A DNA stretch of 64,000 nucleotides, taken from an uncultured Clostridia bacterium. Lineage in GTDB: Bacteria; Bacillota; Clostridia; Christensenellales; Borkfalkiaceae. Of the stretch, positions 35,249-40,200 are shown piece by piece. Each line of letters starts with the position of its first letter. Position 1 is the stretch's first letter. The stretch is from the NCBI GenBank assembly GCA_947625025.1, contig CANQMQ010000003.1, forward strand, positions 1 through 64,000. Reading direction: 5' to 3'. Position numbers and translations under genes: made by a program. Below the pieces are notes generated by a model that saw nothing but the letters and a program-made list of their open reading frames with translations, was not told the DNA's origin and ran no database searches.

Positions 35249-37144
35249 TTAAATATCCTGCACAATCGCGACGATCATGGGCGACTGTTTGGTACGCCTG
35301 AACAAGTAATTCTTTACGGCCCGCCTGAGCGCTTCGGAGGCCTCTTCGGAGGAACAGCGCACGGGAAGCCCATCCACTGCCCTTCTTACGATGTCCTTGA
35401 GTTCCCGCTCGAAGCCCTTCTCCACCGAGGAGACAAAGCCGCGCGAGACGACGGCGGGGTCCCCCACGAGGATGCCGTCCGAGCGGGTGACGCTCACGAT
35501 GAACAGCCCCTCTCCGGACATGCGGATGCGATCCTGCAAAACTTCTGCGGTGGCGTAGTCCTCAAACCCATCCCCGTCGATGAGCCGTGCCCCCGCGGGG
35601 AAACTTGCCCCCTGCTTTAAGGTGGTATCGGTGACTTCAACGGTATTGCCGATGGCGGGAATGAAGATGTGGGAGGCGGGCATGCCGAGCTCCTGCGCAA
35701 GCAGGGCGTGGCGCTTCAAGTGCCTGTATTCCCCGTGTACGGGAATGAAGAACTTGGGCTTTAGGAGGGAGTGCATAATTTTATGCTCTTCCTGGCAGGC
35801 ATGGCCCGAGACGTGGATCTTTTCGAGGCTCTCATACACCACTTCCGCGCCCCGCTTCATGAGGTTGTTGATGACGCGGTAGATCATGCGCTCGTTGCCC
35901 GGGATGGGGCTTGCCGAGATGATGATGGTATCGTTGGAGCCGATGGTCACCTTGTTGAATTCGCCCTCCGCCATGCGGGTGAGCGCGGACATGGGTTCCC
36001 CCTGTGAGCCCGTGGAGACAATGACGATCTCGCGGTCGAAGTAGTTCTTCGTCTTTTCGACGTCTACGAGAACACCCTCGGGAATGGTGATTTCCCCGAT
36101 TTTGGAGGCCGCCTCGACGACGCTCAGCATGCTCCTGCCCGAGAGGGCCACCTTCCTTCTGAATTTCACCGCGATGTCGATGATCTGTTGCAGGCGGTGT
36201 ACGTTGGAGGCGAAGGTCGCAATGATGATGCGCCTGTTGGCATGCTCGGAGAAGAGGTGCTCGAGGGTGGTACCCACCACCTTCTCGCTCATCGTGAACC
36301 CGCTCCGCTCGATGTTGGTGGATTCCCCGAGGTATAAAAGCACCCCCTTCCTGCCATATTCGGCGAGTTCGGCAAGGTCTACGGGCTTGCCCGCAACGGG
36401 CGTTAAATCTATCTTAAAGTCTCCGCTGTGGAAAATGACGCCGTACGGGGTCTCAACGGCAAGGGCGGTCGCTCCCGCGATCGAGTGGTTGACGTTTACG
36501 ATGTTCACCGTAAACACCCCCGCCCTTATCTTATCCTTGGGGGAGACGGTCTGCAGGAGCACGTCGTTCATGCGGTGCTCCCGCAGCTTGTTCTCCACGA
36601 GGGCAAGGGTGAGCTTGGTGCCGTATACGGGCACCTTGGGGAGCTCTGCCATGAGGTAGGGTACCCCGCCGATGTGGTCCTCGTGGCCATGCGTCAGAAA
36701 GACGCCCCGCACCTTGCGCTTGTTGGCGGAAAGGTAGGAGATATCGGGGAATACGAGGTCGATGCCCGGCATCTCCTCTGTGGGGAAAATGACGCCTGCA
36801 TCGATGACGATGATGTCATTCCCGTATTCGATGGCCGTCATATTCTTGCCGATCTCGCCCACGCCGCCGAAGAAGAGGATCTTGACGGGCTTCTTTTGGG
36901 GCTGTTTTACGGCAGGCCGCGTTTTGGGCGCTGCGGGCGCTTGCTTTCTCTCCTGCTGTTTTACGGGGGCAGGTTTCCCCTTGACGCGGGGCAGGCGCTT
37001 CTTCTCCTCCTCCCGCTTGCCCGCCTTGGGCGCGGCCTTCCTGTTCTGTTCACGGCGGTACGCCTCAATGCCGTTCAATATGGCAAGTTCTACGGCGTCC
37101 GCGTTTTTCCGGTCTCTTATTTTATTGCTGTCTTTTTGGTTCAA
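35249..37144 (-). CDS. rnj: Ribonuclease J
   Basis: 631 residues, metallo-beta-lactamase/beta-CASP RNase (endonuclease and 5'-3' exonuclease in mRNA decay). Metal-binding HGHEDH at 152-157, HSGDFK and IPVHGEYRH are present. Oddities: an 85-residue Lys/Arg/Pro-rich N-terminal extension, and changes in normally conserved segments (LGESTN for SDSTN, NHSIAG for NHSIPD). First gene of a run with the helical membrane protein, trmR, trhP and the SPOR-like gene. Confidence 0.93.
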   Translation of the reverse strand: MNQKDSNKIRDRKNADAVELAILNGIEAYRREQNRKAAPKAGKREEEKKRLPRVKGKPAPVKQQERKQAPAAPKTRPAVKQPQKKPVKILFFGGVGEIGKNMTAIEYGNDIIVIDAGVIFPTEEMPGIDLVFPDISYLSANKRKVRGVFLTHGHEDHIGGVPYLMAELPKVPVYGTKLTLALVENKLREHRMNDVLLQTVSPKDKIRAGVFTVNIVNVNHSIAGATALAVETPYGVIFHSGDFKIDLTPVAGKPVDLAELAEYGRKGVLLYLGESTNIERSGFTMSEKVVGTTLEHLFSEHANRRIIIATFASNVHRLQQIIDIAVKFRRKVALSGRSMLSVVEAASKIGEITIPEGVLVDVEKTKNYFDREIVIVSTGSQGEPMSALTRMAEGEFNKVTIGSNDTIIISASPIPGNERMIYRVINNLMKRGAEVVYESLEKIHVSGHACQEEHKIMHSLLKPKFFIPVHGEYRHLKRHALLAQELGMPASHIFIPAIGNTVEVTDTTLKQGASFPAGARLIDGDGFEDYATAEVLQDRIRMSGEGLFIVSVTRSDGILVGDPAVVSRGFVSSVEKGFERELKDIVRRAVDGLPVRCSSEEASEALRRAVKNYLFRRTKQSPMIVAIVQDI

Positions 37145-37183: not shown

Positions 37184-37204
37184 GGAGAGCCGTAATGACT
37201 CTCC
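37184..37204 (-). terminator. Weak terminator after the acidic repeat protein gene
   Basis: Minus-strand stem GGAGAG/CTCTCC with a 9-nt loop, followed by CGTTTTGTT. It lies in the rnj leader, so it may also affect rnj. Confidence 0.45.
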
Positions 37205-37209
37205 TCGTC

Positions 37210-37239
37210 TGTATACTTCGGATTATGATAGTTTCTCAA
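37210..37239 (-). promoter_or_regulatory. Possible promoter of rnj
   Basis: Minus-strand TTGAGA (37234-37239), 18-nt spacer, TATACA (37210-37215), overlapping the end of the upstream gene. Weak match. Confidence 0.35.
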
Positions 37240-40130
37240 AAATCCAAATTGGACTTCTCGACGAGCGCCGTCTTGATGAGCCCTTCGGCAAGAAGCTGTT
37301 CCTCGCTGCGGTAAGCGTATTCCGCAACGTAGTCAACGGGTTCTGCCCCCGATTTCACGGTGCCGAGGCGCTCTGCAAGCAGCTCGATGAGGCGGAGGGA
37401 CCGCTTGAGGGCGGCATGGCTCTTCACCTTCATCATGAGCGGGGTGCGCTCATACATCTTGGTATCGCCCGCGAACTTCTGGTGGTAGACCGATTCGGGG
37501 AACTCATTCGGGTCGAGTGCGAGGTAGAGGCACAACGTCTTTCCGCGGATGGAGATCTTCGCAACCGTATCGTTGTTGTATGCGAAGCGGTCATTCGACC
37601 AATTCACCTGCGACGCCATCTTCGAATAGGAGAGCAGTTCATTCTTGAGGGCGCTGTAGTATTCCTTCACCTCTTCTTCGCTTTCGATGATCTTGGCGAT
37701 GAAGCTGCGCTTGTAGCGGGTGAACATTTCGGGTTCGGCTACGGGCTCGGCGACGGGCTCGGCGGCGGCTACCGCAAGCTCTTCCACGACTTCGGCGGGA
37801 GCTTCCTCAACGGGAGCCTCTACGGGTGCTTCTTCGACGGGTTCCTCAACGGGTTCCTCAACGGGTTCTTCGACGACCTCTTCAACAGGCTCCTCGACGG
37901 GCTCTTCGACGACCTCTTCAACAGGCTCCTCGACGGGTTCTTCGACGGGTTCCTCTACGGGAGCGGGTTCTTCGGGCTCTTCCTCGAGGGGAGCAGGCTC
38001 TTCGGCGGGCTCCTCTACGGGCTCTTCGGCGGGAACTTCCTCCTCCTCTTCGAGGCGGGCAATGATGAGCCCTTTCTCTTCAAGGAGTTCTACGACGCGG
38101 CGGGCGATCTCTTCATAGTCGATGGGCGTCTCGCGGTCGCCAAGCGTATCGGCAACGCGGAGGGCAATCGCATCGTAATCGAGGACGGGCTGATCGGCGG
38201 AGAGATAATCGGCAACGCGACGGGCGATCACTTCATAATCGACCTCGGCTGCGGGCGCCTCCTCTTCGACGGGCTCCTGTGCCTTCAAATAGTCGGCAAC
38301 GCGGCGGGCGATCTCATCATAGACCTCATCGGGGTTACCCAAATCTTCGGGCTCCTCTTCCTCGTATCCTTCGTCCTCTGCCGCCCACTTCTCATCGAGG
38401 ATCTCCGCGATGCGGGCTGCGATCTTCTCGCAATCCAATTCGGGTGCGGGCTCTTCGGCCACTTCGGCGACCTCTTCAACCTCTTCGGCCTCTTCGGGCT
38501 CTTCCTTCCTCTGAAGGAGATCGGCTACGCGGAGCGCGATCTGTTCACCCTCATCGGTGAGGCTGGTACGCACGGCCGTCGAGACATTCTCGCTGTAACG
38601 GGTGAAGGAATCCTCCAAGATCTCGGAGACGCGGAGCGCAACCTTCTCGTAGTCGATCTCGAGCTCAATCGGGGAATCGTCCTCGTCCTCCACATAGGCT
38701 TCGTCCTCTTCCGCCCACTTGGCTTCGAGGAGCTCCACAACGCGGCTTGCAACTTTCTCGTAATCGAATTCGGGAGCGGGCTCTTCGGCAGCCGTCTCGA
38801 CGGTCTCCTCCACGACTTCGGCGGGCTCTTCGGCCTCTGCGGGTTCCTCTTCGGCCTCTGCGGGTTCCTCTTCGGGAACTTCCATCGCCTCGATCTCCGC
38901 ATCCCACTTCGCATCGAGGTAATCCCCGATCTTTTGGGCAAGCAGCTCGTAATCGACGGCGGGCACCGCCTCTTCCTCCGCCACTTCTTCGGCAACCTCT
39001 TCGGAAGCTTCTTCGGGTACTTCTTCTGTAACTTCCTCGGCGGGCTCCTCCGCTGCCTGTGCCTCTGCAAGGGCCGCGGCTTCGGCATTGGCCTCCGCAA
39101 GGCGGGCGGCTTCGAGCTCCTCCTGGATATCGCGGACGCGGAAGGCGATGCGCTCTGCGCTCTCGTCGTCTACGGCGACTTGTCCGAGTGCGCTTACGAC
39201 GCGTTCTGCGGCGAGGTCGTAATCGACGGGCGGAACGGCTTCCGCTACCTTGTCTGCAATCAAATTCTCGTCCACGAGGGGAACGAGCGCCGCGCAACGC
39301 TCGGCAATCGCATCGACGTCCGTCTGCGGCATTGCGGCGACAACTTTATCGGCAATGAGGTCATAGTCCGTCTCGGGAAGGAGTGCGGCGATCTTCTCTG
39401 CAAGCACGTCGTAATCGAATACGGGAGCGGCCTCTTCGGCAGCCGTTTCGACGGGCTCTTCGACAACTTCTTCGACGGGCTCCTCGGCGGGCTCTTCGGC
39501 GGGAACTTCCTCTTCGACGACCTCTTCCTCGGGCTCCTGCGCCTTGATGTATTCCGCAACGCGGCGGGCAAGTTCATCGTAATCGATGACGAACTCGGGC
39601 ACGGGCGCCTCTTCGGGCTCTTCCGCAGGTTGGGCGGTGAGCTTCTCCTCGAGGGTGAGCACGCTATCGTTGAGGCACTCGAGCAGTTCTTCACGGAGGG
39701 AAGAAATTTGCTCATCGAGCACTTGCTGGCGCTCCTGCTCCCTCTTATCGAGTTCGGCGAGCAGGTTCTCGAAACGGGTCTCCGTCTCGTTCGAACGCCG
39801 TTCAAGCTCGGAAAGGACGTTCTGGAAACGGGCCTCCGTCTCCCCTGCACGCTTATCGAGCTCTGCGAGCACAGCGGCCTTCAAGTCGCCTGCGGCCGCA
39901 TCGTCCGCATCGTGAATGGCACTGTTCTGCTGCGAGAGGAAGCGAACCTCCTGAAGCAACTCTGCGATGCTCTCGGTAAGTGCACGGAACTGCGACGTCT
40001 GATGCGTCTCACTGATCCGAAGTTCCTGGCCTACCGCCGTACGCAAGCCGTCTATTTCTTTCGAGAGGCCCTTGTACATGCCCTCGAGCAAGACTGCGTT
40101 GCGTTCTCCATAGTTATTGAATCCAGACAT
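37236..40130 (-). CDS. Large acidic repeat protein with coiled coil and C-terminal domain
   Basis: 964 residues, no signal peptide or membrane segment. Layout: short N-terminal segment and heptad-like coiled coil (about 20-165, LAELDKRAGETEARFQNVL style); a repeat region (about 180-690) with about 16 copies of a helical motif hDYDxIAxRVAxhLxxx; a nearly pure Glu/Pro/Val tract (about 693-800); and a compact basic-aromatic C-terminal domain (about 803-925: RYKRSFIAKIIE, YYSALKNELLSY, IRGKTLCLYLALDP). I recall C-terminal domains of this look in uncharacterised Clostridia proteins. It could be a cytoplasmic scaffold; no function is known. ATG at 40130 with GAGGTG; own promoter. Confidence 0.85.
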   Translation of the reverse strand: MSGFNNYGERNAVLLEGMYKGLSKEIDGLRTAVGQELRISETHQTSQFRALTESIAELLQEVRFLSQQNSAIHDADDAAAGDLKAAVLAELDKRAGETEARFQNVLSELERRSNETETRFENLLAELDKREQERQQVLDEQISSLREELLECLNDSVLTLEEKLTAQPAEEPEEAPVPEFVIDYDELARRVAEYIKAQEPEEEVVEEEVPAEEPAEEPVEEVVEEPVETAAEEAAPVFDYDVLAEKIAALLPETDYDLIADKVVAAMPQTDVDAIAERCAALVPLVDENLIADKVAEAVPPVDYDLAAERVVSALGQVAVDDESAERIAFRVRDIQEELEAARLAEANAEAAALAEAQAAEEPAEEVTEEVPEEASEEVAEEVAEEEAVPAVDYELLAQKIGDYLDAKWDAEIEAMEVPEEEPAEAEEEPAEAEEPAEVVEETVETAAEEPAPEFDYEKVASRVVELLEAKWAEEDEAYVEDEDDSPIELEIDYEKVALRVSEILEDSFTRYSENVSTAVRTSLTDEGEQIALRVADLLQRKEEPEEAEEVEEVAEVAEEPAPELDCEKIAARIAEILDEKWAAEDEGYEEEEPEDLGNPDEVYDEIARRVADYLKAQEPVEEEAPAAEVDYEVIARRVADYLSADQPVLDYDAIALRVADTLGDRETPIDYEEIARRVVELLEEKGLIIARLEEEEEVPAEEPVEEPAEEPAPLEEEPEEPAPVEEPVEEPVEEPVEEVVEEPVEEPVEEVVEEPVEEPVEEPVEEAPVEAPVEEAPAEVVEELAVAAAEPVAEPVAEPEMFTRYKRSFIAKIIESEEEVKEYYSALKNELLSYSKMASQVNWSNDRFAYNNDTVAKISIRGKTLCLYLALDPNEFPESVYHQKFAGDTKMYERTPLMMKVKSHAALKRSLRLIELLAERLGTVKSGAEPVDYVAEYAYRSEEQLLAEGLIKTALVEKSNLDF

Positions 40131-40171
40131 TTTCCACCTCACAGCATAAATGCTATTTTTACCTATATCCT

Positions 40172-40200
40172 ATTCTACACCAAATGCTTCCAAATGTAAA
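40172..40200 (-). promoter_or_regulatory. Promoter of the acidic repeat protein gene
   Basis: Minus-strand TTTACA (40195-40200), 17-nt spacer, TAGAAT (40172-40177); leader of about 35 nt. Confidence 0.55.

Follow-up and report, generated by a model that had tools for sequence, protein, structure and literature searches.

The window, the whole stretch of 64,000 nucleotides that we analyzed, comes from a gut-dwelling member of the class Clostridia and carries, on the minus strand, a gene for a 964-aa protein directly followed by rnj, the gene for RNase J (Table 1). The 964-aa protein is probably a flexible assembly scaffold, and its gene is called here the scaffold gene. The coordinates, length, and acidity given for it in the initial annotation were correct, with a net charge of -195 and a pI of 4.05 as computed from the sequence. 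Its parts are, in order, a coiled coil (residues ~1 to 166), an acidic motif-bearing region (171 to 690, net charge -133), a Glu/Pro/Val tract (691 to 805), and a C-terminal domain (CTD; 806 to 964) of neutral charge. Since the maximum 19-residue hydropathy was only 1.06, the protein has no signal or membrane segment, as had also been annotated. A plus-strand frame of 927 aa (37416-40199, +) was rejected as a gene, since it arises on the opposite strand as an artifact of the repeated Glu/Pro codons.

Table 1. Features of the scaffold gene, rnj, and the region between them (positions in the window)
Feature	Position	Strand	Evidence or remark
Promoter-like TTTACA-17-TAGAAT just 5′ of the 964-aa ORF	40172..40200	-	consensus match only
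ORF, 964 aa	37236..40130	-	ATG at 40130, AGGTGG Shine-Dalgarno just 5′
N-terminal coiled-coil region, residues 1-166, helices 4-74 and 78-166	39633..40130	-	AlphaFold2, relatives
Motif copy, residues 182-195, IDYDELARRVAEYI	39546..39587	-	pattern and PSSM; AlphaFold2 helix 184-197
Core array, five tandem 16-residue units, residues 238-317	39180..39419	-	unit-by-unit conservation in genus; five separate model helices
Degenerate copy, residues 321-335, DDESAERIAFRVRDI	39126..39170	-	helix half only
Motif copy, residues 392-405	38916..38957	-	PSSM; weakest of 13
Motif copy, residues 455-468	38727..38768	-	PSSM
Motif copy, residues 492-505	38616..38657	-	PSSM
Degenerate copy, residues 525-539	38514..38558	-	helix half only
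Motif copy, residues 565-578	38397..38438	-	PSSM
Degenerate copy, residues 601-615	38286..38330	-	helix half only
Motif copy, residues 630-643	38202..38243	-	PSSM
Motif copy, residues 650-663	38142..38183	-	PSSM
Motif copy, residues 670-683	38082..38123	-	PSSM
Glu/Pro/Val tract, residues 691-805, net charge -46	37716..38060	-	DNA-level tandem repeats, periods 12-36
CTD, residues 806-964, order-wide, DUF5655-like	37239..37715	-	profile searches, profile-profile comparison
Hairpin with T-tract between scaffold ORF and rnj, GGAGAGTC..GGCTCTCC	37184..37204	-	conserved; terminator-, attenuator- or processing-like
rnj, RNase J, TTG start	35249..37144	-	adjoins scaffold gene in every tested locus having the gene
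Basic low-complexity N-terminal extension of RNase J, 88 aa, net +17	36881..37144	-	conserved short helix DAVELAILNGIEAY

The motif of the acidic region has the consensus x-D-Y-D-x-[IL]-A-[ED]-[KR]-[VI]-A-x-x-[LI]. A strict regular expression found 10 copies in the 964-aa protein and a looser one found 13, compared with means of 0.00 and 0.01 and maxima of 0 and 1 in 2000 composition-preserving shuffles. A PSSM trained only on the repeats of relatives from other species, and then run on this protein, returned 13 copies (residues 182, 238, 254, 270, 286, 302, 392, 455, 492, 565, 630, 650, and 670), 12 of which scored above the 99th percentile of the shuffle maxima; the copy at 392 fell just under it. 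The initial annotation had counted about 16 copies of the same motif throughout. Its repeats are real and 13 of them are clear, but those near 319, 525, and 601 are degenerate, keeping the helix half (ERIAFRVRDI, EQIALRVADLL, and DEIARRVADYL) and having lost the D-Y-D cap. Nor are all copies equivalent, as a five-unit core with a 16-residue period is conserved and the others vary between species.

The core units 1 to 5 (238 to 317) are spaced by exactly 16 residues and could be aligned unit by unit across 19 species, the same unit being more alike between species (60%) than different units are within one protein (41%). This conservation pattern indicates an ancient, constrained core array, and we rejected mere low complexity as its explanation because each core unit remains recognizable as itself from species to species. 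Outside the core, both the number and the spacing of the copies differ between species, the repeat number being 16 in the own genus, 20 to 23 in genus g8, and 26 in one g3 relative. Among the relatives, L088 (276 aa, rnj-linked) has the CTD and no repeats, and L163 (G012) has repeats upstream of rnj and ends without the CTD, its start being cut by the contig end.

An AlphaFold2 model of the protein, built from a two-sequence input (pTM 0.26), has a pair of long helices at the N-terminus, and in it each motif forms a short helix apart from the others; the pLDDT values were ~50 to 89 per 10-residue block in the N-terminal region and 50 to 63 in the array. This low-confidence model agrees better with helices strung along a chain than with a solenoid; no packed solenoid was modeled, and the array had no accepted match in the PDB or to Pfam families of helical tandem repeats such as TPR and HEAT. 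The annotated N-terminal coiled coil and the series of short helices along an acidic chain are supported by the model at modest confidence. Relatives also share a conserved LSQQNSAIxD segment in the N-terminal region. Searches with the whole protein, the CTD, or the array gave no accepted match in Pfam, NCBIfam, or PDB sequences, and the search of genome contigs gave a single orthologue, L009. As far as these databases and the literature searched go, the protein appears to belong to an undescribed family, in line with its earlier description as a lineage-specific, scaffold-like protein.

The CTD had been annotated as a conserved domain, which it is, but other proteins carry it as well, as an order-wide, DUF5655-like domain found mostly on single-pass membrane proteins. 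It occurred in 82 of 200 genomes sampled from the order, with as many as 12 matches in a single genome, and was almost absent from the wider class and phylum samples. One profile match outside the order (E = 2.7e-5) was a DUF5655 protein by Pfam. An hhalign comparison of the CTD set with a close DUF5655 set gave 93% probability (P = 3.6e-7 over 111 columns) and, with a broader mixed DUF5655 set, only 4.6%. Common ancestry is supported by these profile comparisons, by which the CTD is a distant relative of DUF5655 (PF18899), restricted to the order and often multicopy. The two align over ~110 positions, the CTD having an additional C-terminal segment; its partners are a coiled coil, repeats, or transmembrane segments, whereas the partner of DUF5655 in L040 is a nuclease-like N-terminal part. 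Neither the 964-aa protein nor 21 CTDs matched above the curated cutoff of PF18899 in Pfam, and a PF18899 search of the own genome found nothing. An AlphaFold2 model of the CTD from two sequences (pLDDT 44) had the order helix, three strands, strand, helix, and a fold search with this weak model gave no significant match, the nominal ones being YjbR, YdhG/DUF1801, and frataxin. The CTD was not found on the viral contigs searched, nor the term DUF5655 in the literature search. Its matches amount to a sizeable unannotated family of gut bacteria, none of those tested being assigned by Pfam.

The conserved position immediately upstream of rnj, absent from the initial annotation, is the strongest context for the scaffold gene. 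It was found in 20/20 loci from four genera (g1, g3, g5, and g8; chosen among the best matches), and an O-methyltransferase and a U32 peptidase gene lay downstream of rnj in the examined loci; yihY and tuf were seen next to the scaffold gene in the own genus only. Five genomes of the own genus had no detectable CTD or repeat protein, and these kept both rnj and the basic tail of RNase J. Loss of the gene was seen in the same-genus genomes L162 (G280), L158, L160, and L161, with yihY and rnj being adjacent in L162. A universal linkage of the CTD to rnj was rejected, as, in the cases compared from the order's other families, the CTD paralogues were on contigs other than that of rnj.

The hairpin between the two genes follows the scaffold gene in the own-genus relatives (loci L009 to L038), with a T-tract in most. 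Its 8-pair stem was kept in 23/23 aligned sequences, with both-side changes at three pairs, and no entry for it was found in Rfam. In several of these relatives only some ten bases separate its end from the rnj ribosome-binding site, which leaves no room for a separate promoter, so transcription of rnj would be expected to rely, at least in part, on read-through from the scaffold gene. The hairpin may be an attenuator, or a processing or protection element, and could regulate rnj; since it looks terminator-like, the coupling between the expression of the two genes may be partial.

RNase J itself has a basic tail, which is long in all genera with the scaffold gene; most genera lacking the gene have only 6 to 12 residues. 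At the genus level within the family, this association was 5/5 versus 3/11 (Fisher p = 0.013, kinship ignored), with rnj start codons picked by a simple Shine-Dalgarno rule that was probably wrong for L079. Shared ancestry is a sufficient explanation for the association, as the genera with both may form one clade. The three genera having the tail without the gene were g6, g7, and g10; a weak array match in g10 (L192) was rejected as an orthologue, since the upstream protein proved different on inspection. The tail varies strongly between genera, and the rnj start is often TTG.

A scaffold architecture is well supported for the 964-aa protein, and from architecture alone it is reasonably likely to be a multivalent, oligomeric, and acidic protein of the scaffold type. 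The N-terminal coiled coil would form an oligomer, short amphipathic helices with Asp-Tyr-Asp caps, variable in number, would serve in the central region as putative docking sites along an acidic, disordered chain, and the DUF5655-like CTD would be an anchor or effector. The likeliest client would be RNase J, bound via its basic disordered tail by charge complementarity and/or via the helices to give a degradosome-like assembly, and the scaffold might show condensate-like behavior. That such a cytoplasmic scaffold is expressed and works with RNase J is the reading we favor, if tentatively. The motif copies far above chance, the conservation of the core units, the long coiled coil with isolated short helices in the model, and the strong net negative charge argue for it, as do the adjacency to rnj in all 20 loci examined, the association of the basic tail with the gene, and the read-through implied by the closeness of the hairpin to the rnj Shine-Dalgarno. 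A more elaborate arrangement, a two-protein degradosome analogue in gut Clostridia in which a separate acidic scaffold and a basic-tailed RNase J would be tethered via the DUF5655-like family to membrane or surface proteins, seems rather unlikely.

In the RNase E degradosome, the enzyme's C-terminal scaffold is long, acidic or disordered, bears short helical segments for docking, and is joined to the main ribonuclease. The 964-aa protein resembles it by architecture, with a long acidic region, short helices, and a gene linked to that of the main ribonuclease, but it is a separate protein without a catalytic domain that is encoded beside RNase J, and this genetic link, found in all 20 loci, coexists with the absence of the gene in some genomes. 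PopZ-type polar scaffolds have an acidic Pro/Glu-rich spacer, short helices, and an oligomerizing helical region, all of which have putative counterparts here by description; the order of the parts differs, and the 964-aa protein has 13 to 16 repeated helices and the CTD in addition. We know of no counterpart of the acidic scaffold in Helicobacter. The disordered N-terminal extension of Helicobacter pylori RNase J matters for activity, and a contribution to punctate bodies has been proposed for it (PMC10700544); by description it is a similar tail of roughly 100 residues, which offers a precedent for the RNase J reading. What is new is the combination of parts, not the principle. For the still open question of how bacteria without RNase E put together their RNA-decay enzymes, the scaffold and RNase J offer a specific, testable arrangement.

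The RNase J reading is weakened by the five own-genus genomes and the genera g6 and g7, which keep the tail without the scaffold gene, by the terminator-like look of the hairpin, by the CTD paralogues located on other contigs than rnj in the cases compared, by L088 and L163 lacking the repeats and the CTD, respectively, and by common descent, which could account for the correlation between tail and gene. Its main rival is envelope organization via the shared CTD: the protein would be a cell-envelope or polar organizer whose CTD is a putative homotypic or shared-ligand assembly domain joining the scaffold to CTD-tailed membrane and surface proteins, the adjacency to rnj being gene order only. 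We consider this possible but doubtful. Most CTD paralogues found have an N-terminal transmembrane segment, then an acidic linker, and then the CTD, an order by which the CTD should face the cytoplasm, and the own genome encodes two further CTD proteins, each with an N-terminal membrane segment. The CTD also stands at the tail of a giant surface protein (L063, 4144-aa frame) or beside one (on contig C11), it is present in up to a dozen matches per genome, and tandem CTDs occur (L052, L059, L062, L064, L065, and L069). However, wherever the soluble, repeat-bearing form occurs among the loci tested, it is linked to rnj.

Two further explanations are both improbable. The CTD could be the sole functional part, with the repeats and the acidic tract forming a neutral, expandable spacer; the variable number and spacing of the repeats, the DNA tandem repeats of the Glu/Pro/Val tract, and the repeat-free L088 would agree with this, but individual core units stay recognizable between species and L163 retains repeats without the CTD. 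Marginally less probable still is an acidic decoy or regulator, a polyanion that would compete with RNA for the basic tail and inhibit or time RNase J without scaffolding a complex. Its extreme acidity opposite the basic tail of the neighboring RNase J and the possibly expression-limiting hairpin between the two genes would suit such a role, for which position-specific conserved helices and a conserved CTD would be needless.

Several CTD proteins were distinguished by their neighbors or fusion partners. In the own genome (C11:33216-53099; L005, L006), a 6627-aa surface protein with many 'GGGI/GNTA' repeats is encoded directly upstream of, and on the same strand as, a CTD-bearing membrane protein of 638 aa. 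L053, L063, and L073 are membrane proteins in which a cytoplasmic DUF5655-like domain is fused to a ribosomal L15/L18e-like domain (PF00828, E = 2e-10; Pfam run on L073 only). In L056 and L066, the DUF5655-like domain is followed by DUF1508/YegP-like repeats, the DUF1508-like domain scoring just under the cutoff, and L056 also has a zinc-ribbon-like stretch.
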